Translations under genes and position numbers: made by a program | The notes under the pieces: model-generated | Databases searched by the model: none | The model's input: only the letters and a program-made list of their open reading frames with translations | What the model was told of the DNA's origin: nothing | Shown: positions 37,891 through 49,690 of the stretch, one piece after another | How positions within the stretch are numbered: the first letter of the stretch is position 1 | How the letters are laid out: each line of letters opens with the position of its first letter | Origin: Hippopus hippopus | Lineage: Eukaryota > Mollusca > Bivalvia > Cardiida > Cardiidae | Direction of reading: 5' to 3' | Assembly: GCA_946811185.2 (NCBI GenBank) | Contig: OX328108.1 | Location: 8,824,412-8,888,411 of the forward strand | DNA length: 64,000 bases

Positions 37891-37896
37891 CCTGGT
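37891..37896. other. Target site duplication, left (CCTGGT)
   Basis: An exact 6-bp copy matches 49685-49690. Six-bp duplications are the hallmark of Polinton/Maverick integration by a retroviral-type integrase. Confidence 0.85.
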
Positions 37897-37904
37897 AGTA
37901 GTAT

Positions 37905-37959
37905 AGGACGGGATAATACGCATCTGACGAGCCCGGTCAGATCCGTATTATCCCGTCCT
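37905..37959. repeat. Terminal palindrome, left (55 bp)
   Basis: Arms of 24 nt with one mismatch (AGGACGGGATAATACG then ATCTGAC, and the inverse) surround a 7-nt loop. It can form a long hairpin 8 bp from the tip. The right tip has the identical sequence in inverse orientation. Confidence 0.9.
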
Positions 37960-38136
37960 GTAGAGCCCTACGCTACCTACCCTACAGATAATTTGTCCCA
38001 GTTGCTACCCAGTTTGCCTACCCTGAGGGGAATTTGTCCCTACATCACTGAATTGGACTTAGTTTTTTCTGAGTTTTTTCTGCAATTAAAGGCTAAGTGT
38101 CGACCAAAAATGAAACATTTTCTATTGTCAATCCTC

Positions 38137-38545
38137 TTTTCTCTCTAAAAGCCTGATCACTGAGTTGGACTTAGTTTTTTTCACCCTATGGATGATTTCT
38201 CTCTCTAAAAGCCTGAGCACTGAGTTGGACTTAGTTTTTTTTTACCCATATGCTATTAGGATTGCTTTATTGTTTACTTCTATCCACTACTTGACCTTTA
38301 AGTGGTTTGTCTCTCTAAAAGCCTAACCATTGAGTTGGACTTAGTTTTTGTCATCCTATGAATGATTTTTTCTCTAAAAGCTTGAGCACTGAGTTGGACT
38401 TAGTTTTTTCTGCATCTATGGATGATTTTTCTCTCTAAAAGCCTGAGCATTGAGTTGGACTTAGTTTTTTCTGCATCTATGAATGATTTCTCTCTCTAAA
38501 AGCCTGAGCACTGAGTTGGACTTAGACTTTTTTCTGAGTTTTTTT
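38137..38545. repeat. ~60-bp tandem array in the left inverted repeat
   Basis: Units contain CACTGAGTTGGACTTAG, a T run, ATGGATGATTT and CTCTCTAAAAGCCTGAG. About seven units, some with a longer variant holding CACTACTTGACCTTTAAGTG. The same unit recurs at 39810-40075 and, inverted, at 47280-47950. Confidence 0.85.
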
Positions 38546-38672
38546 TTTACTCTCTGGAGTGTGGCTCTTTGGAGTGTGGTTCTTTGGAGTGTAACTCTTT
38601 TAAAAGAAAGAAGTTTGACAATTTGAAGAAATGACAATTTGAAGAAAGATAGAACTTTCGTGGTAGATGGTT

Positions 38673-38712
38673 AGTCCTGAAAAGGACTGTTGGGTTAGCT
38701 CTGAAAAGAGCT
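38673..38712 (-). terminator. Two histone-type 3' hairpins
   Basis: On the minus strand: AGCTCT-TTTC-AGAGCT followed by AACCCA, then AGTCCT-TTTC-AGGACT followed by AACCATCTACCACGAAAG. The stems differ by paired changes. They lie beyond the first pair after the 73-codon gene and may be reserve copies. Confidence 0.7.
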
Positions 38713-38898
38713 GTGACAATTTGAAGATAGAACTTTCGTCTGACAACTTGAAGAAATGACAATTTGAAGATAGAACTTTCGTCTGACAACTTGAAGATAG
38801 AACTTTCGTCTGACAATTTCAAGAAATGACAATTTGAAGAAAGATAGAACTTACGTCTGACAATTTGAAGAAAGATAGAACTTTCGTGGTAGATGGTT

Positions 38899-38936
38899 AG
38901 CCCTGAAAAGGGCTGTTGGGTGGTCCTAAAAGGACC
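38899..38936 (-). terminator. Two histone-type 3' hairpins after the left 73-codon gene
   Basis: On the minus strand GGTCCTTTTAGGACC is followed by ACCCA exactly as in histone mRNAs, then AGCCCT-TTTC-AGGGCT by AACCATC. The first lies about 20 nt past the stop codon at 38956. Confidence 0.75.
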
Positions 38937-38955
38937 TGGTTTGGAGGTTGTGTTT

Positions 38956-39177
38956 TTAAGCACAACCTCCAACCTTTCTGCAGGCTGGGCAGCTACTCGC
39001 CGCCCGCCTCTTCAATCTCTTCAGTTGCTGCTCATCTAAATCAAACTTTAACGAGAACGGTGGCTCGTTGTCATCGTTCCAATTCTCCGTCTCCGGCACA
39101 ATGAAGTCTTTCTTTTTCTTCTTTGCGGGTAGTAGTGCAATCTCCCAAAAGTCCATGTCTTTAAGTGAGCACTCCAT
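38956..39177 (-). CDS. Small lysine-rich protein with C-terminal CPAC motif, left copy
   Basis: 73 residues. An acidic/hydrophobic N-terminus (MECSLKDMDF), a lysine cluster, an acidic middle, a basic LKRLKRRAASSCPACRKVGG segment and a C-terminal GCA. The function is unknown. Its twin in the right inverted repeat (48584-48814, 76 aa) differs at scattered residues while both stay open, which suggests the frame was under selection before or after duplication. The promoter block with TATAAAA (39227-39233) and TGACGTCA (39265-39272) lies 50-95 bp upstream, and a histone-type hairpin begins ~20 nt past the stop. A DNA-binding or core protein is possible but is a guess. Confidence 0.65.
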   Translation of the reverse strand: MECSLKDMDFWEIALLPAKKKKKDFIVPETENWNDDNEPPFSLKFDLDEQQLKRLKRRAASSCPACRKVGGCA

Positions 39178-39226
39178 ATTACACCAACTCGAAGAAAATG
39201 AACGATGTGCGGGAAATAACGCTGGG

Positions 39227-39450
39227 TTTTATAGCTTTTCAGACGGATTGAACTAGTTGACCCATGACGTCATTTTCTCCTATGTTTTTCCCGCGTCGGC
39301 GTTTCATGCTGTTTTGGCTCCAAATTAATGTTATCCAATCAGAATTATCGTTGTTTTTCTAATACTAAATGTTTTATTGTTGACCAATCTATAGTTTTGT
39401 TACATTTTTTCTTGTTCGGGTTAGAAAAAACTAGAGTTTGACTATCCTAT
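39227..39450 (-). promoter_or_regulatory. Shared promoter block (CRE + TATA), copy 1
   Basis: On the minus strand: CGGGTTAGAAAAA..., an inverted CCAAT (ATTGG), CGCCGACGCGGGAAAAACAT, TGACGTCA at 39265-39272, GTCAACTAGTTCAATCCGTC, TATAAAA at 39227-39233, then CCCAGCGTTATTTCC. Near-identical blocks precede the genes at 40249, 45731 and 48584. TGACGTCA is the consensus CREB/ATF site. Confidence 0.8.
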
Positions 39451-39511
39451 GACTTTTTTGATTATGAGTCTTCTGACAAAATGAAAAGAAAGATGTTTAT
39501 TGAAGATGGTT

Positions 39512-39527
39512 AGCCCTGAAAAGGGCT
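39512..39527 (-). terminator. Histone-type 3' hairpin after the 46-codon gene (left)
   Basis: Minus strand AGCCCT-TTTC-AGGGCT, then AACCATCTTC, about 22 nt past the stop codon at 39550. Confidence 0.75.
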
Positions 39528-39549
39528 GTTTTTGTGCAGAATACACTCT

Positions 39550-39690
39550 TTATCCTCCCCTCTTTCTTTCGATTGATTCCATTTTATCTAGCATTTGCAT
39601 CAGATGCTCAATTTCATACCTGATATATCTGAAACGTTCTCTTTCTTCTAACCAGAAGAGCAATGAGAGAAAAAATGTCAATCCAAACAT
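39550..39690 (-). CDS. 46-residue membrane-anchored coiled-coil peptide, left copy (intact)
   Basis: Starts MFGLTFFLSLLFWLEE, one hydrophobic segment long enough to span or anchor in a membrane, followed by a charged heptad-like helix (YIRYEIEHLMQMLDKMES) and KRGG. A TATAAAA sits about 80 bp upstream on the minus strand, and a histone-type hairpin follows the stop. The function is unknown. The right-repeat copy has one extra T in a T run and is frameshifted. Because only one arm keeps the frame, this call rests on the start/stop/hairpin arrangement and the amphipathic design. Confidence 0.5.
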   Translation of the reverse strand: MFGLTFFLSLLFWLEERERFRYIRYEIEHLMQMLDKMESIERKRGG

Positions 39691-39799
39691 TATGGGATAC
39701 TGACCCAGCTTTTACGATAGTTAATGGTGAATGAGAAAAAATAATCAGAGTTTAGTGTTTTATATGTGTAATGGGTCACTTTTTAGGCTTTTTTGATTT

Positions 39800-40075
39800 T
39801 ATCCCTATATCACTGAGTTGGACTTAGTTTTTTCTTCACCTATCAATGATTTTTTCTCTCTAAAAGCCTGATCACTGAGTTGGACTTAGTTTTTTCTTCA
39901 CCTATGGATGATTTCTCTCTAAAAAGCCTGAGCACTGAGTTGGACTTAGTTTTTTTACCCATATGCTATTAGGATTGCTTTATTGTTTACTTCTATCCAC
40001 TACTTGGCCTTTAAGTGGTTTCTGTCTCTAAAAGCCTAACCATTGAGTTGGACTTAGTCTTTTTCTGAGTTTTTT
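39800..40075. repeat. ~60-bp tandem array, inner part of the left inverted repeat
   Basis: Units with CACTGAGTTGGACTTAG as in 38137-38545, about four copies, ending in TTTGGAGTGTGGCTC/TTTGGAGTGTAACTT short repeats. Confidence 0.8.
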
Positions 40076-40199
40076 ACTCTTTGGAGTGTGGCTCTTTGGA
40101 GTGTAACTTTTTGGAGTGTAACTCTTCTAAAAGAAAGAAGTTTGACAATTTGAAGAAATGACAATTTGAAGAAAGATAGACCTTTCGTGGTAAATGGTT

Positions 40200-40215
40200 A
40201 GCCCTGAAAAGGGCT
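40200..40215 (-). terminator. Histone-type 3' hairpin after the 104-codon gene
   Basis: Minus strand AGCCCT-TTTC-AGGGCT, followed by AACCATTTACCACGAAAG, about 33 nt past the stop at 40249. Confidence 0.75.
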
Positions 40216-40248
40216 GTTTTTAGAGAAGGACTGATTTTTTGAAAATGT

Positions 40249-40563
40249 TTATTCAGTATCAGCATCAGTCGATTCGCTGTCTGACTCACTCCTTTCAGCG
40301 GCGATTTGCTCGCGGAAATGACGGTCTACCTGCTCAGTTTTTGAAATAACATACTGAAAATACATTTCAAGCATGCCCTCAATAATGAGTTCCTTCATCC
40401 GAAGGTTATAACAGAACACCCTGTTATTAGCAAGCTCAGCCCTCTCGTAACGCTTTCTTACTTCAACTAAGCGCTGTTGAAGTAAAATGATTTGCCTCCT
40501 CGCTCTTGTTAACTTTCGCTCGGCATCCATCCAAGTGAAGAGGAGTGATGGTCTTGAAGCCAT
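40249..40563 (-). CDS. 104-residue coiled-coil protein with acidic tail
   Basis: After MASRPSLLFTWMDAE comes a long basic helix (KLTRARRQIILLQQRLVEVR) with heptad spacing. A second hydrophobic helix (KELIIEGMLEMYFQYVISK) follows, and then an acidic Ser/Asp/Glu tail (SESDSESTDADTE). It probably self-associates; the function is unknown. The start is favoured because TATAAA (40601-40606) and TGACGTCA (40638-40645) of the shared promoter block sit ~40-80 bp upstream. It ends 33 nt before a histone-type hairpin. The frame is intact. Confidence 0.7.
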   Translation of the reverse strand: MASRPSLLFTWMDAERKLTRARRQIILLQQRLVEVRKRYERAELANNRVFCYNLRMKELIIEGMLEMYFQYVISKTEQVDRHFREQIAAERSESDSESTDADTE

Positions 40564-40597
40564 TGTGAAAAATGAAATGTATGAAAATATATCGCAG

Positions 40598-40800
40598 AGA
40601 TTTATAGCTTTTCAGACGGATTGAACTAGTTGACCCATGACGTCATTTTCTCCTATGTTTTTCCCGCGTCGGCGTTTCATGCTGTTTTGGCGCCAAATTA
40701 ATGTTATCCAATCAGAATTGTCGTTGTATTTCTAATACTAAATGTTTTATTGTTGACCAACCCGTGGTTTTGTTACATTTTTTCTTGTTCGGGTTAGAAA
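40598..40800 (-). promoter_or_regulatory. Shared promoter block (CRE + TATA), copy 2
   Basis: Same order as copy 1: inverted CCAAT, CGCCGACGCGGG, TGACGTCA (40638-40645), TATAAA (40601-40606). The similarity to copy 1 runs ~200 bp and stops just before the ATG of the 104-codon gene. Confidence 0.8.
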
Positions 40801-40915
40801 AAAACTAGAGTTTGACAATTCTATGACTTTTTTTTGATTGTAAATCTTTTGAGATTTTGACAATTTTGAAGAAATGACAATTTGAAAAAAGATAGAACTT
40901 TCGTGGTAGATGGGT

Positions 40916-40931
40916 AGCCCTGAAAAGGGCT
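40916..40931 (-). terminator. Histone-type 3' hairpin after the 101-codon gene
   Basis: Minus strand AGCCCT-TTTC-AGGGCT, followed by ACCCATCTACCACGAAAG, about 49 nt past the stop at 40981. Confidence 0.75.
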
Positions 40932-40980
40932 GTTTTGTTTTGGAGGCTGTGTTTTTTCGTCTCACGTTGTTTTTTCCACT

Positions 40981-41286
40981 TTAATGACAGCACCCGAAAT
41001 TCGCTTGACAAATGGGGCATGCTTCAACTCTTTTTCTGATTACCATTGCTCCATTATCGAAAGTAATCTTCCTCCCAAATTCGATATCAACCAAAATGAC
41101 ATCCGGTGTTGTCTTTAAAAATAGTTGAACTAATCTTTCGCGGAGATCTTTGTATGGCTGTGTTATACGTTGTAGTTGGTTTTGTTCCTCCTCTCCTACG
41201 AAATGAGTGTTTAGTTGTAATAACTGTTGACCTGCATTTAGATATTCTTGGAGAGCCTCACGTAGTTGATGATTTATCTCCTCCAT
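40981..41286 (-). CDS. 101-residue helical protein with C-terminal CPIC/GCC motif
   Basis: An N-terminal helix (MEEINHQLREALQEYLNAGQ), a second helix (NQLQRITQPYKDLRERLVQL), a short beta-like part (VILVDIEFGRKITFDNG) and then CPICQANFGCCH at the very end. The C-terminal CPxCxxxxGC is shared with the 73/76-codon proteins, suggesting a common tail that binds metal or a partner. The promoter (TATAAAG at 41378-41384) and 5' leader match those of the 46284 gene over ~150 bp. Function unknown; frame intact. Confidence 0.7.
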   Translation of the reverse strand: MEEINHQLREALQEYLNAGQQLLQLNTHFVGEEEQNQLQRITQPYKDLRERLVQLFLKTTPDVILVDIEFGRKITFDNGAMVIRKRVEACPICQANFGCCH

Positions 41287-41455
41287 ATTGATATTGCTTC
41301 CAAATATTGATACTGCTTTCGAAGTGATCGTTAGCTGAGAGTCAAAGAAATGGTGATTGTATGAAAATAACGCTGGGCTTTATACGTTTACAGAGGATTG
41401 AAAATTTTTAAAGAGCACGGACCTGGCGGAAAGCACATACATTTTTTCCCATGCT
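41287..41455 (-). promoter_or_regulatory. Second shared promoter block, copy 1
   Basis: On the minus strand CCGCCAGGTCCGTGCTCTT, TTTTCAATCCTCTGTAAACG, TATAAAG, CAGCGTTATTTTC and the leader CTAACGATCACTTCGAAAGC. The same order precedes the plus-strand gene at 46284. It differs from the CRE block except for the CAGCGTTATTT initiator-like element. Confidence 0.75.
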
Positions 41456-41514
41456 ACGTTTCATGCTAATATAGCAAAAAAATGTAGACAGAACAAGTCT
41501 TTGGGAAAAAACAG

Positions 41515-41836
41515 AATAAAGAGCTCTATTGTTTTTTGAACTTTTATTTATTGAACTTTTAGTTATTGAACAGAACTAAACAATGAAACATTTTTTGCAA
41601 TGCATCATAAAAATTTTCTTGACAATGAAAAAAATTTCTTGACAATGAAAAAAATTCACAAGGAAACATTTTTTTACAATACAGCATAAAAACATTTTCT
41701 TAACAATGAAAAAATTCACACTGAAATATTTTTTACAATACAGCATAAAAAACATTTTCTTGACAATGAAAAAAAATCACACTGAAATATTTTTTTCACA
41801 ATGAATTATTCACAATGAATTATTCGCAATGAATTT
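41515..41836. repeat. AT-rich degenerate tandem repeat downstream of the 217-codon gene
   Basis: Units of about 55-60 bp with ACAATGAAAAAAATTCACA, ACATTTTTTTACAATACAGC and ATAAAAACATTTTCTTG words. It contains TTTATTTATTG, i.e. AATAAA on the minus strand, and no histone-type hairpin. It could serve as the 3' end of the minus-strand polymerase-side genes. Confidence 0.7.
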
Positions 41837-41837
41837 T

Positions 41838-42491
41838 TTACAATGCAAATTCGCAAATACCACGAGTTTCACATTTGTCTTCATATTCCGTAATGTCTTT
41901 GTGCAATTGGTCATACCCCAAAAACATTGTATACTCACTGTCCATATCGTCGAAATCTCGTAGTCCTATGAATGGAGCAACATGTCTATAAGCGTCTTTT
42001 GTTGAAAGAGCTGAATTCACTACTTCTTCTGTAACATCTCTATCAAATAGAATATACCCTGACATGGTTTCCATTGTTTCTCCGTAGGAATGAACAAATC
42101 CTTTTTTGTAGCGTAAGTAAAAGTCAAATAGAACTGATTTCGTTTTCAGAACGTTAAGAAAACTTTCTTCTGTTGTTCCTATGATAAAAAATGTCCATCG
42201 ACTTGTGGATCGAAACAGTTTACTAATAACATTGTCTTTCAAACAGCTATCTGCTAAATAAGTCTTGAGATCGAGATCCAAACCCGAATCGTCCACCATC
42301 ATCGCAATAAAGTTGATTATACCATACACTTTGTAGGACTTTTCTCCTTTCGCAATCGACTTAAACATTTTTTCGATCCAAATTTTCACACAGAAAAATT
42401 TAATGTTAACCTGTGTTCGTTCATCAAGCGTATGCTGTCGAACAAATTCTCCATAATTTTTTTCACGTAGTTCTATTGGTAACGGTAACAT
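41838..42491 (-). CDS. 217-residue protein of unknown function
   Basis: An intact frame, the longest complete one in the element. It starts MLPLPIELREKNYGEFVRQH. The middle is hydrophobic (VYGIINFIAMMVDDSG; WTFFIIGTTEESFL), and the C-terminus is acidic (DFDDMDSEYTMFLGYDQLHK). No catalytic motif that I recognise. It lies directly downstream of the polymerase in the same orientation, and a TATAAAA at about 42584-42590 could drive it. It lacks the CRE block and the histone-type hairpin. The place suggests a replication-side role, but this is inference. Confidence 0.65.
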   Translation of the reverse strand: MLPLPIELREKNYGEFVRQHTLDERTQVNIKFFCVKIWIEKMFKSIAKGEKSYKVYGIINFIAMMVDDSGLDLDLKTYLADSCLKDNVISKLFRSTSRWTFFIIGTTEESFLNVLKTKSVLFDFYLRYKKGFVHSYGETMETMSGYILFDRDVTEEVVNSALSTKDAYRHVAPFIGLRDFDDMDSEYTMFLGYDQLHKDITEYEDKCETRGICEFAL

Positions 42492-42617
42492 GATTGTTAT
42501 TTTTTGACCAACGGCTAATATTTTTCCCGACTTACTTTGACTGATTGCTACACAACAATGTGATATAGAATTATTTCCTCAAACTTTTATAACCATAGGG
42601 TACAGTGTCAGTACCAT

Positions 42618-44413
42618 TTACAATAACTCTCTTGGTGTATACAGAGCGAAACGTTTTTGTTTGTGGTTCACAGGTAACCGTTCTATCTCTGTGTCTTTTA
42701 ATTCTAAATCATACTGAATTTTGATTTCTATTGTGCGATCCAAAGCACATTTTGAAAATGTATCGAAATTCACCACCTGTTTTGTATTGTAATCCAGAGT
42801 AATCCCCTTTACTTTACATTTGCTTATCTCTTCTCCATCTTTTGTTTTCATTTTGTAAGCATAATTCTTAGGCCCAAGCCCTCTGAATTGAGTAATTTTA
42901 CAAGCAGGCTCTTCATCAGTCCATTTTCCTAGCCGGCTGTTAATAATAGGAGGGTTCCATAATTCAGGGTCGTGAATGTACATACAACTATCTGTATCGA
43001 AATACAGAACTCTATCTTTTAACTTTTCAAGAACGCTGTACAATTCCAACCTTGCACTATAGAAGAACTCGTCTCGTCATCGCTGTCATGGTTCAACTTA
43101 CTTTGGTAAGGCTGAATATAGCATCGATGAGAAAAGTTAACAATTCTCTTACAGATATGACACCTTTTCTCTCCAATGCAAATATGATTTTTCTTTCTGA
43201 CAAGATATTGCACACCACATTTCGAACAGAGTTTCACTAATTCACAAATGGATTTCTTTTCTTTACCTTGAACAATTTTGTGATTTCCAAAGCATTCAGC
43301 ACTAAAAAATCGTCTACGACAATCACTGCAAACATATTCTTTTGATTTTGATGGACATTTTCCTTTGCGGTAACAACCTTTGCAGATAATTGAACAAGCA
43401 TGACTTTCCCGGTGAAAGTAACCCACATCACAGAACTCACAATATTATCCACAACTAAAAAAACCTTTGATAGATTTAATGTAATCATAATGGTTTTGAT
43501 GAAAGTACAAATGTATGATTTTAGTCTCGTCTTTTACTTCTGGATGTTTAAATATTTTTTCCACTTTTGAATGCTGTTGATGAACTTTAATGACATAGCC
43601 TTTTTCATACAAGAATGTTTGAATTTTTTTGTATTCATCAATTCCTACAGGCTGTGTTGGTGAAACTCCAGCTTCATTCAACAATTTCTCAGCTTCAGTC
43701 TTTTGAAGAGGGAGTTTTGAACGACAAATACGATCCCATTTTCTATTCCATGCTCCGGTGTTTTCACGTTCACTGTAGCAAATTCCCACAACAACGGCTC
43801 TTGCAAAACATAGCTGGTCATGATTGCTAATTTGAATAATGGATTTTTTCTTCTGGGCAAAAACCTTTGAATCTAATTCTGATGATCCATATTTTCCGCT
43901 ACCACTTGGAGGTATTGTATGTGTAATGTCAAATGTCATTAATCCATCGTTCAAGACGAAATCTGTATTCGATTGTAGAACTCGTTCAATTTCATTCAAC
44001 ATAGTTTCACCTTGCAACTGTTCTGTAGTTAAAAAAGGAATATGGATTCCCATTTCCAACGAAGGATGACTAATGGTAATTCTAATCATGTCCGTCGGGT
44101 TAGCATTTAACTTTCGAATGATTTCATGGGTAACATCGTCAAATAATCCAAGTAGTCTCTGAGGTGATAATTCTTCAAATTTCTTAAAACTCACCGTCAG
44201 CACATGTGATTCTGTTCTAAATTTTCTTGACTTCTTATTACCCCTTTCTGTTAAATCATATAGACTTTTCATGTCTAAGCTAGAGTTGATACTTTCATCG
44301 TCACTGTCACTTTCTTCTTTCAACGGTCTAGTTTTTTTCTTTTTTGTTGGTGGAAATACCTCATCGTCACTTTCGCTGTCCAAATAGGTTATTATTCTTT
44401 TTCTTTTACCCAT
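42618..44413 (-). pseudogene. Protein-primed family B DNA polymerase, internally deleted and interrupted
   Basis: The replicase of a Polinton/adintovirus-type element. The N-terminal frame (44413-43445) has a nuclear-localisation-like KKKKTRP with acidic patches, then the QISNHDQLCFARAVVVGIC region common to metazoan Polinton-type polymerases. It stops at an in-frame TAA (43445-43447) and continues in the same frame into a zinc-rich segment with repeated CxxC pairs and RCYIQP (43426-43019). The next frame (43049-42618) holds YFDTDSCMYIHD, the palm motif C with the catalytic Asp pair. The exonuclease domain and palm motifs A and B, several hundred residues, are absent between them. Near the C-terminus the frame shifts again. 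It cannot make an active enzyme. Three independent lesions indicate decay or a non-autonomous lineage. Confidence 0.85.
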
Positions 44414-44572
44414 CGTTTTAGCTCTGAGTGAAAAGACAATAATGCAGAAAGTGAGAAAAAACTAACAATTTATATAACCTCTCCGTTGCAACAGTGCATA
44501 AATAGAGACGACTGTTGTGAAAATCTAATCATTCTTCTGCTCAATCTCAGACAGTACAGATGATAAAAGAAT
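44414..44572. promoter_or_regulatory. Divergent promoter between the polymerase and zinc-knuckle genes
   Basis: TATATAA on the minus strand (about 44470-44477) faces the polymerase, and CATAAATAG on the plus strand (about 44499-44507) faces the zinc-knuckle gene. No TGACGTCA or CAGCGTTATTT element is present, unlike the other promoters of the element. Confidence 0.55.
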
Positions 44573-45434
44573 ATGAGCGAATTCAAGCTGCAAAATACAA
44601 CACCGTTTAGAAAGAGGGTGCATCTGTATGTTAATCCATACAACCACGATTATGAGCTCAGCAATTTTCCGTCAAAGTATCGTGTTAATCATATCGGAAA
44701 CTACGTGGGATCATTTTTATCCCACCAACATTTAGAAGAAAAAGATGTTTACCGTACTATCACCTACAGAGGTATGGATCAAGCGACAGCCGACAAACGA
44801 TATGGGGTGAATGGTCAGAGAATAAATATTTGTTTTAGGTGCAACGAGGTAGGACATTGGTCCAGAAATTGTCCAAAAAAAAAAAAAAAAAAATCAGACA
44901 GGAAGATTTGTTTTTGTCTACGTGAACCCACACAGTCATGACATCGAATTTTCACCAACGTTTTACAACGGTGCCGGTCTCCAACATATGAAATTCGTCG
45001 GCACACTATATTCATTCTACAACGAAAATACATGGAAAACAAGCTCACTACAGACTACAATATCATCGGTTGAAAATCAGACCGTAGACATGCAGTCCGA
45101 CACAACGGATATCAGCGAATCAGAAATCTGCAAAATAACAGAACAGGTAGAGAAAAAAATATCTACAAGCGATAATCTGCACAAACAACAATCTTCGGAC
45201 CTAAAAAACAACGAATTTTCTACAGAACCGGGTTGTTCGTACGGAGAGGAAAAACAGCAAAACAACGAAAAGAAGAAAAAACGAGTAACAAAGAACTGTT
45301 TCTTTTGCAAATCAACAAAGCACGAGGGTAAAATCTGTCCAGATATAATATTAAAAACCAATGAAAGGGGAAGAAAACGTAAAATCAAATGTGAATCTGA
45401 CATTCCGAAGAAAAAAATAAAACATACTGAGTGA
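44573..45434 (+). pseudogene. Zinc-knuckle (CCHC) protein, two similar halves, frame broken or slipping at a run of 19 A
   Basis: The first frame (44573-44941) begins MSEFKLQNTTPFRKRV, has YVNPYNHDYELSNFPS and a perfect CX2CX4HX4C knuckle (CFRCNEVGHWSRNC), then reaches 19 A (44875-44893). The second frame starts just past the run with YVNPHSHDIEFSPTF, a clear echo of the first half, and ends with another CX2CX4HX4C (CFFCKSTKHEGKIC) and basic residues, to a TGA at 45434. CCHC knuckles bind single-stranded nucleic acid. Either the run has changed length by replication slippage (a pseudogene) or polymerase slippage on it makes both products. A polyadenylation-type AATAAA lies near 45577. No histone-type hairpin follows. 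Confidence 0.7.
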
Positions 45435-45683
45435 AAAAAGATTTCAACACAATATGGAATTCAAACAAAAAAGACTGATTTTATTTTTTTCATTCATTTT
45501 TTGTCTTTACAGTTCATTCATTTTTGTCTTTACAGTTCATGACTTGATTTTTTCATTGTACATAAGTTCTTTTGAAAATAAAAAACATGAAAATAATTCT
45601 TACTTTTGACTTTTTTCTAGTTTTAACTTTTTTTTTACTTTTGACAATTTTGAAGAAAGAAAGATCTTTTCTTGGAGATGGTT

Positions 45684-45699
45684 AGCCCTGAAAAGGGCT
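45684..45699 (-). terminator. Histone-type 3' hairpin after the 68-codon gene
   Basis: Minus strand AGCCCT-TTTC-AGGGCT, followed by AACCATCTCCAAGAAAAG, about 31 nt past the stop at 45731. Confidence 0.75.
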
Positions 45700-45730
45700 T
45701 TTAAAAAGGATTTCACGACAACATCGAGCT

Positions 45731-45937
45731 CTACGACTCCTCCGCCCGATCCGCTGGGGTGATTTCACACCCACAGTGTTCACAGCAAGTCGATGAACCT
45801 GCATCATCATCGTAAAATCCTTCATCTGTATCTGGACAGTTATGTTTCTGTCCAAGATACTCAAGTATGGCAAAACATTTCCCACACTCTATCTGGCATC
45901 TGCTTGCGCAGTGAGGGCACACAAGAATTCGAACCAT
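45731..45937 (-). CDS. 68-residue cysteine-rich (zinc-ribbon-like) protein
   Basis: Starts MVRILVCPHCASRCQIECGK. It has CPHC, CQIECGKC, a single Cys (HNCPD), and a late CCEHCGCE cluster: about eleven cysteines and several histidines in 68 residues, enough for two or three metal sites. An acidic loop (DTDEGFYDDDAG) lies between. The function is unknown; RNA-polymerase-subunit-like or protein-binding zinc ribbons look alike at this level. It is driven by a CRE/TATA block (TATAAAA 45977-45983, TGACGTCA 46015-46022) and ends at a histone-type hairpin. Confidence 0.65.
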   Translation of the reverse strand: MVRILVCPHCASRCQIECGKCFAILEYLGQKHNCPDTDEGFYDDDAGSSTCCEHCGCEITPADRAEES

Positions 45938-45969
45938 CCTGGAACAAATATGTTTTTATGTAAAAAGAT

Positions 45970-46060
45970 TGGCGGATTTTATAGCTTTACAGGAGGATTG
46001 AACTAGTTGACCCATGACGTCATTTTCTCCTATGTTTTTCCCGCGTCGGCGTTTCATTAA
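45970..46060 (-). promoter_or_regulatory. Shared promoter block (CRE + TATA), copy 3
   Basis: Minus strand CGCCGACGCGGGAAAAACAT, TGACGTCA (46015-46022), GTCAACTAGTTCAATCC, TATAAAA (45977-45983). It is back to back with the second-type promoter at 46140-46283, so this is a bidirectional promoter region. Confidence 0.8.
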
Positions 46061-46134
46061 CATTGTGCAATCAAATCGATGGTTATATCGGTGTTTTTTC
46101 ACCACTCCTAATTCAGTGTCACACAGTACAATCC

Positions 46135-46283
46135 TGGTGTTTCCCGCCAGGTCCGCGCTCTTAAATTTTCAATCCTCTGTAAACGTATAAAAACGCAGCG
46201 TTATTTTATACAATCATCATTTCTTTGACTCTCAGCTAACGATCACTTCGAAAGCAGTATCAATATTCGGAAGCAGTTTCAAT
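46135..46283 (+). promoter_or_regulatory. Second shared promoter block, copy 2
   Basis: CCGCCAGGTCCGCGCTCTT, TTTTCAATCCTCTGTAAACG, TATAAAA at 46186-46192, CAGCGTTATTTT and the leader CTAACGATCACTTCGAAAGC, matching 41287-41455 in order and sequence. Confidence 0.75.
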
Positions 46284-47060
46284 ATGAAGCACAACTTAGA
46301 TGAAATCAACTTGGACGATTTCCCACCAGTGGAAAACAATGGAGACATTCTTTCATCAGTTATAAATTCGACAATTATCAATCCACCGACGGTGTTGTAC
46401 AACATTTGTGAAGAGATGAAACAGTTAAATTCAAAACAAGATGCCATGATGACTCGGATCTTAGAACAACTGGAGACTTTAAACAGGCATTTGGAGGAAA
46501 TTAAAACTTTAAACACAAACGCCGAGCAGCTCAGTAAAAATATCGAGGTACTACGCCAACAGGGTCAGTGCATTTCAACAGTTCCTGTGAAGATCCCTGT
46601 GGAGTTTGACTTTGATAAAACCAATCTTCACAAGTGAGTGGACTCTATCGTAAGTGTTGTGAAGAAAAATCAACCAAAGAAAAAGCCAAAGACAGAGGAA
46701 AAACAACCAAGAAAAACAACAAAACGGAAATCTGAGGAAGACGATAGTCATCTCCACAAGAAACAGCGAGTTGATCAAAAGTCAACTACACCAATAATGA
46801 CAGGCCAGGGCAAATACGGGAAAAACATTGATAATCACGTTCATTTCAAGATCCCGAAAAAGCCAAAGACAGAGGAAAAACAACCAAGAAAAACAACAAA
46901 ACGGAAATCTGAGGAAGACGATAGTCATCTCCACAAGAAACAGCGAGTTGATCAAAAGCCAACTACACCAATAATGACAAGACAGGGCAAATACGGGAAA
47001 AACATTGATAATCACGTTGATTTTAAGATCCCGAAAAAGCCAAAGAAAAGCTGTCGGTAG
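46284..47060 (+). pseudogene. Coiled-coil protein with a doubled 59-residue basic tail, interrupted by one in-frame TGA
   Basis: Codons 1-117 give an acidic N-terminus (NLDEINLDDFPPVENNGD) and a coiled coil (EEMKQLNSKQDAMMTRILEQ and on). A TGA at 46635-46637 follows, after which the same frame continues for ~140 codons with two tandem 59-residue repeats. Each repeat contains KRKSEEDDSHLHKKQRV, a bipartite nuclear-localisation-type signal. The DNA unit is 177 bp, second start at 46857. The TGA sits inside AAGTGAGT, a good splice-donor match, so an intron, readthrough or simple decay are all possible. The gene ends 23 nt before three histone-type hairpins. Function unknown; a nuclear DNA-associated protein is a guess. 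Confidence 0.65.
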
Positions 47061-47083
47061 AGAAAAAACACAGCCTCCAAAAC

Positions 47084-47147
47084 AGTCCTTTTCAGGGCTA
47101 ACCCAACAGTTCTTTTCAGAGCTAACCCAACAGTCCTTTTCAGGACT
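47084..47147 (+). terminator. Three consecutive histone-type 3' hairpins
   Basis: AGTCCT-TTTC-AGGGCT, AGTTCT-TTTC-AGAGCT (each with one G-T wobble) and AGTCCT-TTTC-AGGACT, followed by AACCCA, AACCCA and AACCATCTACCACGAAAG. They begin 23 nt past the stop at 47060. Confidence 0.75.
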
Positions 47148-47279
47148 AACCATCTACCACGAAAGTTCTATCTTTCTTCAAATTGTCATTTCTTCAAATT
47201 GTCAAACTTCTTTCTTTTAGAAGAGTTACACTCCAAAGAGTTACACTCCAAAGAGCCACACTCCAAAGAGTAAAAACTC

Positions 47280-47950
47280 AGAAAAAGACTAAGTCCAACT
47301 CAGTACTCAGTCTTTTAGAGAGAAAAAATCATTCATAGATGCAGAAAAAAGTCTAAGTCCAACTCAGTGTTCAGGCTTTTAGAGAGAGAAAATCATTTAT
47401 AGGTGAAAAAAACTAAGTCCAACTCAGTGCTCAGACTTTTTAGAGAGAAACCACTTAAAGGCCAAGTAGTGGATAGAAGTAAACAATAAAGCAATCCTAA
47501 TAGCATATGGGTAAAAAACTAAGTCCAACTCAGTGCTCAGACTTTTAGAGAGAGAAATCATCCATAGATGCAGAAAAAACTAAGTTCAACTCAATGGTCA
47601 GGTATTTAGAAAGAGAAATCATTCATAGATGCAGAAAAACTAAGTCCAACTCAATGGTTAGGCTTTTAGAGAGAGAAACCACTTAAAGGTCAAGTAGTGG
47701 ATAGAAGTAAACAATAAAGCAATCATTCATAGATGCAGAAAAAAACTAAGTTCAACTCAGTGATCAGGCTTTTTTAGAGAGAGAAATCATCCATAGATAC
47801 AGAAAAAACTAAGTCCAACTCAGTGCTCAGGCTTTTGGAGAGAAAAATCATCCATAGATGCAGGAAAAACTAAGTCCAACTCAGTGCTCAAGCTTTTAGA
47901 GAAAAAATCATTCATAGATGCAGAAAAAAACTAAGTCCAACTCAGTGATA
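47280..47950. repeat. ~60-bp tandem array in the right inverted repeat
   Basis: About ten units containing AAGTCCAACTCAGTG, CTTTTAGAGAGAGAAATCAT and ATAGATGCAGAAAAA. Two long variants carry CACTTAAAGG..CAAGTAGTGG. It has more units than the left inner array (39800-40075). Confidence 0.85.
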
Positions 47951-48067
47951 TAGGGATAAAATCAAAAAAGCCTAAAAAGTGACCCATTACACATATAAAA
48001 CACTAAACTCTGATTAATTTTTCTCATTCACCATTAACTATCGTAAAAGCTGGGTCAGTATCCCATA

Positions 48068-48209
48068 ATGTTTGGATTGACATTTTTTTCTCTCATTGCT
48101 CTTCTGGTTAGAAGAAAGAGAACGTTTCAGATATATCAGGTATGAAATTGAGCATCTGATGCAAATGCTAGATAAAATGGAATCAATCGAAAGAAAGAGG
48201 GGAGGATAA
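48068..48209 (+). pseudogene. 46-codon membrane/coiled-coil peptide, right copy (frameshifted)
   Basis: The right-repeat twin of 39550-39690. A run of 7 T replaces 6 T after the seventh codon region, so the frame shifts inside the hydrophobic segment. All later sequence (CATCTGATGCAAATGCTAG and so on) is unchanged. A histone-type hairpin with one mismatch follows at 48232-48247. Confidence 0.6.
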
Positions 48210-48231
48210 AGAGTGTATTCTGCACAAAAAC

Positions 48232-48247
48232 AGCCCTTTTCAGTGCT
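48232..48247 (+). terminator. Histone-type 3' hairpin, one mismatch
   Basis: AGCCCT-TTTC-AGTGCT followed by AACCATCTTC. The mismatch in the stem accompanies the frameshifted 46-codon copy, consistent with relaxed constraint there. Confidence 0.65.
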
Positions 48248-48349
48248 AACCATCTTCAATAAACATCTTTCTTTTCATTTTGTCAGAAGACTCATAATCA
48301 AAAAAAAGTCATAGGATAGTCAAACTCTAGTTTTTTCTAACCCGAACAA

Positions 48350-48535
48350 GAAAATGTAACAAAACTATAGATTGGTCAACAATAAAACATTTACCATTAG
48401 AAAAAACAACGATAATTCTGATTGGATAACATTAATTTGGAGCCAAAACAGCATGAAACGCCGACGCGGGAAAAACAGGAGAAAATGACGTCATGGGTCA
48501 ACTAGTTCAATCCGTCTGAAAAGCTGTAAAACCCA
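48350..48535 (+). promoter_or_regulatory. Shared promoter block (CRE), copy 4, TATA altered
   Basis: Same order as copies 1-3: CGCCGACGCGGGAAAAAC, TGACGTCA (48486-48493), GTCAACTAGTTCAATCCGTC, but the box reads TGTAAAA instead of TATAAAA (about 48525-48531). It is followed by CCCAGCGTTATTTCC and the 76-codon gene. Confidence 0.75.
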
Positions 48536-48583
48536 GCGTTATTTCCCGCACATCGTTCATTTTTCTTCGAGTTGTAGAAAAAG

Positions 48584-48814
48584 ATGGAGTGTTCACTTAG
48601 AGACATGAACTTTTGCGAGCTCGCTGAACTATCAGTAAAGAAGAAGGAGAAGAAGAAGAAGGAGTTCACTGTGCCACAATCTGAAAGTTGGGACGATGAC
48701 AACGAGGCACCGTTCTCGTTAAAGTTCGAGCTGGACAGCCAACAGCTGAAGAGATTGAAGAGGCGGGCGGCGAGTAGCTGCCCAGCCTGCAGAAATGTTG
48801 GAGGTTGTGCTTAA
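48584..48814 (+). CDS. Small lysine-rich protein with C-terminal CPAC motif, right copy
   Basis: 76 residues, the twin of 38956-39177. MECSLRDMNFCELAELS, a longer lysine run, then acidic residues, LKRLKRRAASSCPACRNVGG and a final CA. Three extra residues lie in the lysine run and about a dozen substitutions elsewhere, many conservative, with the C-terminal 20 residues almost unchanged. This pattern suggests constraint on the tail. Its TATA box is altered, so it may be weakly expressed. It ends 19 nt before a GGTCC hairpin. Confidence 0.65.
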   Translation: MECSLRDMNFCELAELSVKKKEKKKKEFTVPQSESWDDDNEAPFSLKFELDSQQLKRLKRRAASSCPACRNVGGCA

Positions 48815-48833
48815 AAACACAACCTCCAAACCA

Positions 48834-48871
48834 GGTCCTTTTAGGACCACCCAACAGCCCTTTTCAGGGCT
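48834..48871 (+). terminator. Two histone-type 3' hairpins after the 76-codon gene
   Basis: GGTCCTTTTAGGACC followed by ACCCA, then AGCCCT-TTTC-AGGGCT followed by AACCATCTACCACGAAAG. The pair mirrors 38899-38936. Confidence 0.75.
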
Positions 48872-49057
48872 AACCATCTACCACGAAAGTTCTATCTTTC
48901 TTCAAATTGTCAGACGTAAGTTCTATCTTTCTTCAAATTGTCATTTCTTGAAATTGTCAGACGAAAGTTCTATCTTCAAGTTGTCAGACGAAAGTTCTAT
49001 CTTCAAATTGTCATTCCTTCAAGTTGTCAGACGAAAGTTCTATCTTCAAATTGTCAC

Positions 49058-49097
49058 AGCTCTTTTCAGAGCTAACCCAACAGTCCTTTTCAGGACT
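49058..49097 (+). terminator. Two further histone-type hairpins
   Basis: AGCTCT-TTTC-AGAGCT and AGTCCT-TTTC-AGGACT, each followed by AACC. They mirror 38673-38712 in the left inverted repeat. Confidence 0.7.
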
Positions 49098-49307
49098 AAC
49101 CATCTACCACGAAAGTTCTATCTTTCTTCAAATTGTCAAACTTCTTTCTTTTAGAAGAGTTACACTCCAAAGAACCACACTCCAAAGAGCCACACTCCAG
49201 AGAGTAAAAAACCCAGAAAAAAAGTCTAAGTCCAACTCAGTGCTCAGGCTTTTAGAGAGAGAAATCATCCCTAGATGCAGAAAAAACTAAGTCCAACTCA
49301 ATGGTTA

Positions 49308-49560
49308 GGCCGGGCTCCCCTCGGTGGGCAATACTTAGCCTTTTATTGCGAAATAAATGTTCTATTTATAGTAACATTTTCATGCGGATTCTCGGACTTT
49401 ATCGTTTACTCGACCCCGGGTTCTAGCCTGAGAGGGATTTGTACCCAGTTTGCCTCCAAAACGTCCGCCATCTTGAATTCTGAGTATAGACACTCCGGGT
49501 ATCAGGGTAGGCAAACTGGGTATTTTTTGGGCATTTTTTGTAAAAGTGATATAATGTAAA
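49308..49560. other. Segment unique to the right end of the element
   Basis: It begins CCGGGCTCCCCTCGGTGGGC and includes CGTCCGCCATCTTGAATTC. The word GGGTAGGCAAACTGGG occurs at about 49505 and 49569, and CAGTTTGCCTACCCTGA occurs once at the left (about 38010). A duplication at the right or a deletion between such words at the left could explain the difference. Confidence 0.6.
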
Positions 49561-49621
49561 TTCTTTCAGGGTAGGCAAACTGGGACAAATTCTCTGTAGG
49601 GTAGGTAGCGTAGGGCTCTAC

Positions 49622-49676
49622 AGGACGGGATAATACGGATCTGACCGGGCTCGTCAGATGCGTATTATCCCGTCCT
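49622..49676. repeat. Terminal palindrome, right (55 bp)
   Basis: The exact inverse of 37905-37959, in the same loop orientation relative to the tip (no flip/flop difference between the two ends). Confidence 0.9.
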
Positions 49677-49684
49677 ATACTACT

Positions 49685-49690
49685 CCTGGT
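49685..49690. other. Target site duplication, right (CCTGGT)
   Basis: Identical to 37891-37896. Removing the element and one copy restores GATCTGACCTGGTGACATTG, which aligns with sister repeat units such as GATTTGACCTAGTGACTCGG at about 49808. Confidence 0.85.

Follow-up and report, generated by a model that had tools for sequence, protein, structure and literature searches.

Among metazoan mRNAs, those of the replication-dependent histones are described as the only ones known to lack poly(A) (PMC10388802). Their 3′ ends are formed when SLBP binds a stem-loop, the U7 small nuclear ribonucleoprotein (snRNP) pairs with a downstream element and CPSF73 cuts between the two (PMC7026596). SLBP is reported to need a G as the second stem base (position 7), its only base-specific hydrogen-bond contact (PMC10388802). 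Traits of Polinton/Maverick elements and adintoviruses include a 6-bp target duplication, terminal inverted repeats (TIRs) and a family-B DNA polymerase of the protein-primed type (PolB, PF03175). In this work we have analyzed an element that has these traits, positions 37897-49684 of a 64,000-nucleotide (nt) window (the whole stretch of DNA analysed) of the bivalve Hippopus hippopus, contig OX328108.1. The sequence strongly supports the view that the small genes of this element carry histone-type 3′ ends.

Small DNA tumour viruses and adenoviruses have E2F-linked early genes tied to S phase, in which they would resemble the element; their mRNAs are polyadenylated, and we know of no histone-type 3′ end in them. 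The closest published case we have met of a histone stem-loop claimed for a virus is a predicted Histone3 (RF00032) match of 14.7 bits in the nsp3 region of SARS-CoV-2 (PMC7786107); it falls within coding sequence of an RNA virus and not at the end of a gene, and looks like a chance match. For adintovirus-related viruses, a term search of a single paper met histone-like proteins and no stem-loop (PMC11071296). Searches of openly licensed PMC papers showed no account of transposons or Polintons whose genes have histone-type 3′ ends.

The element contains eight small frames (G1 to G6 and the inverted copies G1r and G2r). Besides these it has a 217-amino-acid (aa) frame, a zinc-knuckle gene and what is left of a polymerase gene. 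All coordinates are those of the whole window, and the element within it is referred to as the window copy. L-numbers (L011, L019, L021, L120-L149, L150-L156) denote loci read elsewhere in the host genome, of which L150-L156 are seven pieces of other copies of the element, none read end to end. The small genes are as follows.

38956..39177, minus strand: G1, 73 aa, with a CPxC..GC C-terminus
39550..39690, minus strand: G2, 46 aa, with a homologue in L155
40249..40563, minus strand: G3, 104 aa, with an acidic end
40981..41286, minus strand: G4, 101 aa
45731..45937, minus strand: G5, 68 aa, cysteine-rich
46284..47060, plus strand: G6, in-frame TGA at 46635-46637, basic repeats towards the end of the frame
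48584..48814, plus strand: G1r, inverted copy of G1, 76 aa

The inverted copy of G2, G2r, is decayed, with one stem mismatch in its hairpin and a frame shifted relative to the G2 start. Capture of a histone gene together with its protein was rejected, as the small proteins scanned match no Pfam histone family.

The element was scanned for 6-bp stems, G-U pairs allowed, around a TTTC loop; 13 hairpins proved intact, and one more has a mismatch.

47084, 47108, 47132, 48856, 49058 and 49082, plus strand: intact hairpins
45684, 40916, 40200, 39512, 38899, 38697 and 38673, minus strand: intact hairpins
48232, plus strand: fourteenth hairpin, with a single mismatch (G2r)

The original prediction had placed a hairpin with a 6-bp stem and TTTC loop behind all eight small frames, and this holds, the one at G2r being imperfect. 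Chance was rejected as their origin, because 300 dinucleotide shuffles of the element gave 1.06 hairpins on average and 5 at most against the 13 intact ones; the remaining 52.2 kb of the window contain 10 hairpins, none of them fully Watson-Crick, compared with 11 fully Watson-Crick in the element. Each hairpin shares the strand of the adjoining small gene. The first stem begins 41 nt past the stop codon in G1 and G1r, 22 in G2 and G2r, 33 in G3, 49 in G4, 31 in G5 and 23 in G6, so the predicted span of 19-49 nt was correct except at its lower bound (22-49 measured). The stem is followed by AACC in 13 of 14 hairpins and by ACCC in one, and the GAAAG tract attributed to every gene is present at G1, G1r, G3, G4 and G6, with GAAAAG in G5 and AATAAA at that place in G2 and G2r.

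The stems read AGCCCT, AGTCCT, AGCTCT or AGTTCT with matching 3′ sides, the second base being G in 14/14. Over the ten distinct rows 59 of 60 cells are paired and three are changed on both sides, and compensatory variation is seen at two of the six stem pairs (3 and 4). Both the observed pairing and the covariation score were reached in 1/500 of the shuffle controls; since the rows are related copies, this covariation counts as support and not as proof. Hairpins outnumber genes, as three stand in tandem behind G6 and an extra gene-less pair lies at each end (38673/38697 and 49058/49082). Where stem-loops are in tandem, two or three of them 24 nt apart precede a single purine core (47084-47147, 38673-38712, 49058-49097). 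The flanks of several cassettes are clearly duplicates of one another, so the cassettes do not represent eight independent events.

These ends resemble metazoan replication-dependent histone 3′ ends in the 6-bp stem, the 4-nt loop, the G at stem position 2, the A-rich 5′ flank, the ACC after the stem and the purine core 12-13 nt further on, and resemble the host's own histone ends also in a TGTCA motif. They differ in belonging to genes that are not histones, in an A-U first pair, in having up to three tandem stem-loops and, at G2, in lacking the purine core. In the host genome (1.07 Gb), tandem histone genes form a cluster on contig 15, and a covariance model, R1, was made from six host histone 3′ ends alone (H1, H2A, H2B, H3, H4 and an H2A variant). 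Over the 64 kb, the ten cassettes of the element were the ten best of 18 R1 rows at E<=10, with 50.9, 50.7, 50.6, 47.6, 47.6, 46, 46, 39, 35.5 and 26.3 bits (E 1.5e-7 to 0.0083), and the next row had 15.3 bits. Eight belong to the eight small genes and two are distal extras; no R1 match in the window follows the PolB, zinc-knuckle or 217-aa gene.

38627..38712, minus strand: extra distal cassette with no gene of its own, stem-loops 38697-38712 and 38673-38688, R1 47.6 bits on 38627-38694
38853..38920, minus strand: 3′ cassette of G1, stem-loop 38899-38914, GAAAG, TTGTCA, R1 46.0 bits, RF00032 24.8 bits
39469..39533, minus strand: 3′ cassette of G2, AATAAA for GAAAG, R1 35.5 bits, RF00032 27.8 bits
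40154..40221, minus strand: 3′ cassette of G3, R1 50.7 bits
40870..40937, minus strand: 3′ cassette of G4, R1 50.9 bits, RF00032 28.5 bits (the best)
45637..45705, minus strand: 3′ cassette of G5, R1 39.0 bits
47084..47193, plus strand: 3′ end of G6, stem-loops at 47084, 47108 and 47132, then GAAAG and TTGTCA, R1 47.6 bits on 47126-47193
48226..48290, plus strand: decayed 3′ cassette of G2r, one stem mismatch, R1 26.3 bits
48850..48917, plus strand: 3′ cassette of G1r, R1 46.0 bits
49058..49143, plus strand: extra distal cassette with no gene of its own, stem-loops at 49058 and 49082, R1 50.6 bits on 49076-49143

The general Rfam model does not score the hairpins as noise, yet leaves them below its gathering cut-off: at a relaxed threshold RF00032 gave ten matches in the element, of 18.6-28.5 bits (E 1.4e-4 to 0.69 in 16 kb). 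A control over 14 well-known genomes gave matches in one (Lactococcus lactis), none above the cut-off. In one stretch of the contig 15 cluster, the host's own histone stem-loops score 35.2 (H4), 33.5 (H2A), 32.4 (H2B), 31.5 (H3) and 30.0 bits (H1).

The likeness extends past the stem. Counted from the last stem base, the six host ends have GA(A/G) at +11-12 and TGTCA at +30-34, and the element genes, counted from their last hairpin, have a purine core at +12-13 (GAAA/GAAAA, six of eight genes) and TGTCA at +33-37, that is, the same order at near-host spacing. All six host histone ends (L019, L011) thus have TGTCA at 30-34 nt, farther from the stem than the purine core. To our knowledge no role has been described for TGTCA past the histone downstream element, and the element draws attention to it as a conserved motif of the host's histones. 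On contig 8, a histone-type stem-loop (L021:1073; RF00032 31.4 bits) has no TGTCA in the next 50 nt; it stands about 490 nt after a frame resembling a Harbinger-type nuclease.

The hairpin pattern AGNNCTTTTCAGNNCTAACC, which itself fixes four of the six stem pairs, has 13,002 matches in the host genome (6548 + 6454), against 1 + 0 for its reversed form; the 100 places listed out of the 13,002 include at least one (C1:6853822) with a broken pair, and these approximately 13,000 stem-loops compare with at least 74 scored RF00032 matches in the same genome. In L120-L149, 34/34 hairpins with distinct context pair fully, and the 23 that are last in their tandem have TGTC(A/G) at +28-40 in 20 cases and a loosely defined purine core at +10-15 in 22. 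R1 finds 21 cassettes in L150-L156 (33.5-57.8 bits, with four further rows at 13.9-16.8); of the 11 examined there, 9 stand some 21-39 nt behind an open frame of 46-99 aa and two have no such frame. The frames ahead of them are homologues of G2, G3, G4 and G5 plus an additional 98-aa gene, and G1 homologues with a cassette are present in L150 and L152. The extra 98-aa gene with its 3′ cassette (L153:1274 region) was not found in the window copy. Thus other copies within the host genome keep the hairpins, and with the ranking by R1 this strongly supports the histone-mRNA-like 3′ ends of the original prediction.

The position of the hairpins bears on whether they could be signals at the level of DNA, for replication, recombination or packaging, that stand behind genes by coincidence. 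Many of them do fall within inverted repeats close to the two ends of the element, the extra pairs at both ends have no gene, and in the window plus L150-L156 3/35 hairpins follow an antisense open reading frame (ORF) of >=40 aa that ends 15-60 nt before. However, 22/35 follow such an ORF in the sense direction, a count that takes the G6 frame twice, and these include that of G5 in the middle of the element; loop and 3′ tail are asymmetric, and the match with host histones extends to the downstream motifs and, as described below, to promoter motifs. We consider a purely DNA-level function very improbable.

By a simple counting method on short genes, the ratio of nonsynonymous to synonymous substitution (dN/dS) is 0.44-0.52 for the 217-aa gene and 0.12-0.34 for those pairs of G1, G3, G4 and G5 that could be measured. 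Synonymous sites are saturated in several gene pairs (G5 between the window copy and L154, G1 between the window copy and L150 and between the window copy and L155), yet in 13 chosen cassettes the stem, loop and TGTC are identical in 13/13 and TTGTCA is present in 11/13, with varying sequence between. A single captured histone 3′ end might have been duplicated with the repeats and homogenised without any function, as the duplicated flanks, the possible gene conversion between copies and the decay or loss of some cassettes would allow. Such relics hardly account for stem-loops unchanged beside genes with saturated synonymous divergence, for compensatory stem changes, for cassettes at all eight small genes and not behind the other three, or for histone-type promoter motifs on six small genes, and this origin too is given only a slight chance.

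The promoters of seven small genes (G1, G1r, G2, G3, G4, G5 and G6) and of the 217-aa, PolB and zinc-knuckle genes were compared with those of the host histone genes. Six of them contain the following motifs, in which CRE stands for cyclic-AMP response element.

39209..39294, minus strand: G1 promoter, TCAATCC-TATA, CRE TGACGTCA, two E2F-consensus sites
40603..40697, minus strand: G3 promoter, TCAATCC-TATA, CRE, E2F-consensus sites (two of three overlap)
41381..41423, minus strand: G4 promoter, GGTCCGTGCTCTT (as in host H1), TCAATCC-TATA (as in host H2A/H2B)
45980..46044, minus strand: G5 promoter, TCAATCC-TATA, CRE, E2F consensus
46140..46189, plus strand: G6 promoter, E2F consensus, CCAGGTCCGCGCTCTTAA (exact in the host H1 promoter), TCAATCC-TATA
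48466..48549, plus strand: G1r promoter, two E2F-consensus sites, CRE, TCAATCC (TATA changed to TGTA)

TCAATCC is present in six of the seven small-gene promoters (G1, G1r, G3, G4, G5 and G6) and is followed by TATA in five of the six. The combination TCAATCC-N6..20-TATA occurs five times in the window, each time at a small-gene promoter, with 0.65 expected. Host H2A and H2B have TCAATCC before TATA, and the promoters of host H3 and the H2A variant have TTTCAATCC. G4 and G6 both contain GGTCCG(C/T)GCTCTT, and the CCAGGTCCGCGCTCTTAA that G6 shares with host H1 is nearly matched in G4; in local comparison with host H1 the promoter of G6 scores 19.0 and that of G4 18.5, where 25 shuffles reach at most 12 and 14, and the promoter of G5 scores 14.0 with host H2B (shuffle maximum 12). 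The E2F consensus occurs 12 times in the window, with 3.8 expected and a maximum of 8 over 100 shuffles. Three sites are in the other 52 kb and nine in the element, each of the nine no more than 200 nt upstream of G1, G1r, G3, G5 or G6 (5/7 promoters). The 217-aa, PolB and zinc-knuckle promoters have no histone-type motif and no E2F site, and their similarity to host histone promoters is within shuffles. In other copies TCAATCC is found in 8/8 small-gene promoters and 0/4 other promoters, and in the diverged copies L154 and L155 the TATA is preceded by AAGTAGGTCAATCC, letter for letter as in host H2A. The histone-like promoter motifs and E2F sites on the small genes are new beyond the original prediction.

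Taken with the histone-type 3′ ends, these shared motifs are most simply read as a sign that the small genes behave as honorary histone genes, expressed in S phase; the element would belong to a large PolB-bearing, Polinton-derived family that probably expresses its small accessory genes in this way. Use in S phase is supported indirectly by the histone-like promoter motifs together with the E2F sites (window copy and close relatives), and from the 3′ ends we infer the use of SLBP and U7 and mRNA without poly(A). The small genes would be transcribed in S phase, SLBP would bind the stem-loop AGCCCUUUUCAGGGCU, the GAAAG core would pair with U7 snRNP and CPSF73 would cut between stem and core; the mRNA would then have no poly(A) tail and the small proteins would be made only during host replication. 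The polymerase, zinc-knuckle and 217-aa genes would follow another, ordinary programme.

Several observations weigh against this reading. All ten RF00032 scores are under the gathering cut-off of 34 bits, the curators' threshold, at which Rfam had no match in the window; the cut-off is strict for this animal, because four of its five histone classes score below it. Two of five covariation measures stay within shuffles (pairs changed on both sides 55/500; pair types 239/500). The 13 cassettes compared above are a chosen set that omits decayed G2-type ends (48226, L152:1084 at 5/6 pairs, L150:1558) and the AGTCCT/AGCTCT hairpins; gene conversion between copies may mimic constraint, and one G6 copy (L150) is without a cassette. 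As to the promoters, host H1 and H4 have no TCAATCC, the G2 promoter has no TCAATCC, E2F, CRE or other histone-type motif, the whole-promoter similarity of G1, G1r, G2 and G3 to the host is within shuffles, and the CRE TGACGTCA is only mildly enriched (four small-gene promoters, about 1.8 expected from the flanks). Among the eight small-gene promoters of other copies GGTCCG(C/T)GCT is found in none and the E2F consensus in three (0/3 from L154 and L155); with TCAATCC kept in 8/8, what is conserved is thus TCAATCC-TATA, and the E2F sites are peculiar to the branch of the window copy.

To the same side belong the first stem pair, A-U in the element and G-C in all six host histone ends, and the AATAAA that replaces GAAAG in G2/G2r, with further AATAAA (G3) and ATTAAA (G4) at or next to the stop codon, by which polyadenylation is possible at G2, G3 and G4. 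The hairpins might then bind SLBP on messages that are also or mainly polyadenylated, the stem-loop serving translation or acting as an SLBP/U7 sponge instead of in 3′ processing. Tandem stem-loops without a purine core of their own (G6, distal cassettes) and the sheer number of 13,002 hairpins in the genome would suit this. A mere sponge, however, needs neither a purine core nor TGTCA, which most genes have near host spacing and which other copies largely keep. We regard this alternative as unlikely, though less so than the two considered above. As for the A-U first pair, it is no obvious bar to SLBP, because the required G at the second stem base is kept in 14/14.

If the honorary histone genes work as proposed, a histone signal on six or seven small non-histone genes would break the rule that replication-dependent histone mRNAs alone lack poly(A) in metazoans. 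Start and end signals like those of the host histone genes suggest that the small proteins are produced only during DNA copying. Selfish DNA would gain a direct clock for host DNA replication, and the copies would supply many natural variants with which to work out what in the histone signal is important. More tentatively, and with somewhat more doubt than confidence, we propose that a family of perhaps a thousand copies uses the histone pathway for its whole set of accessory genes, at the promoter and at the 3′ end alike, with proteins made in S phase only, that with its some 13,000 stem-loops it may also compete with the host for SLBP/U7, and that TGTCA could be a third, undescribed part of the histone 3′ signal in this animal lineage.

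The outline of the element and its remaining genes are given below.

37897-49684: whole element, between copies of the 6-bp target duplication CCTGGT
37891..37896, no strand: left target-site duplication CCTGGT, read directly, identical to the 6 bp at 49685-49690
49685..49690, no strand: right target-site duplication CCTGGT
37897..38003, no strand: left TIR, 107 nt, 99% to 49578-49684
49578..49684, no strand: right TIR, inverted copy of the left repeat, 99%
41838..42491, minus strand: 217-aa gene, without histone-type promoter motif or histone-type 3′ end
42618..44413, minus strand: PolB remains, internally deleted, N-terminal frame 43445-44413, YFDTDS frame 42618-43076
44573..45434, plus strand: zinc-knuckle (CCHC) gene, split over two frames in the window copy, AATAAA at 45577

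The assignment to Polintons or adintoviruses made in the original prediction is supported only in part, by the target duplication, the 107-nt TIRs at 99% and the family-B polymerase. In the Pfam scan the window copy's PolB pieces were unrecognised, and the polymerase ORF of L151 matched PF03175 at 3e-45. L151 is an 8.6-kb middle part of another copy with PolB, the zinc-knuckle and 217-aa genes, G3, G4 and G5. No integrase, ATPase or capsid was found in the only ORFs scanned (10 of the window and 7 of other copies), nor specifically in the three scanned in L151; of the adintovirus set of capsid, integrase and PolB these ORFs gave PolB alone. The element is therefore not filed as a complete Polinton or adintovirus, from which it differs also in the histone-type signals on its small genes.

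In IMG/VR the pattern AGNNCTTTTCAGNNCTAACC was found in 10 contigs, with all six pairs formed in 5/10, and R1 gave nothing at E<=1 on those ten. The canonical pattern was found in 95 contigs, of which 80 were examined; 52/80 pair fully, 46 of the 52 being one repeated sequence, and these contigs were set aside as unrelated on their tails alone. PolB, searched as a single protein and as an alignment, and G5, searched as an alignment, gave no relative in IMG/VR, and no G5 relative was found in prokaryote genomes. The protein look-up gave no relatives for G4 and 56 for the PolB N-terminus, all of them ENA records without names. For the cysteine-rich G5 family (LGQKHNCPDxDEGFYDDD), 13 relatives were found in other data sets; one comes from a record that bears the label of a Candidatus Thiodiazotropha bin and is possibly host DNA within the bin.

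Many imperfect repeats around AAGTCCAACTCAGTG lie near both ends of the element (38056-38540, 39800-40060, 47280-47960 and 49230-49310). The outer ~60 nt of the left TIR form a single long palindromic hairpin (37897-37980, DNA fold z -8.1), and the right TIR (49600-49684) is a 99% inverted copy of this palindromic end. Such a palindromic outer TIR is unusual among Polinton ends and reminiscent of hairpin telomeres.

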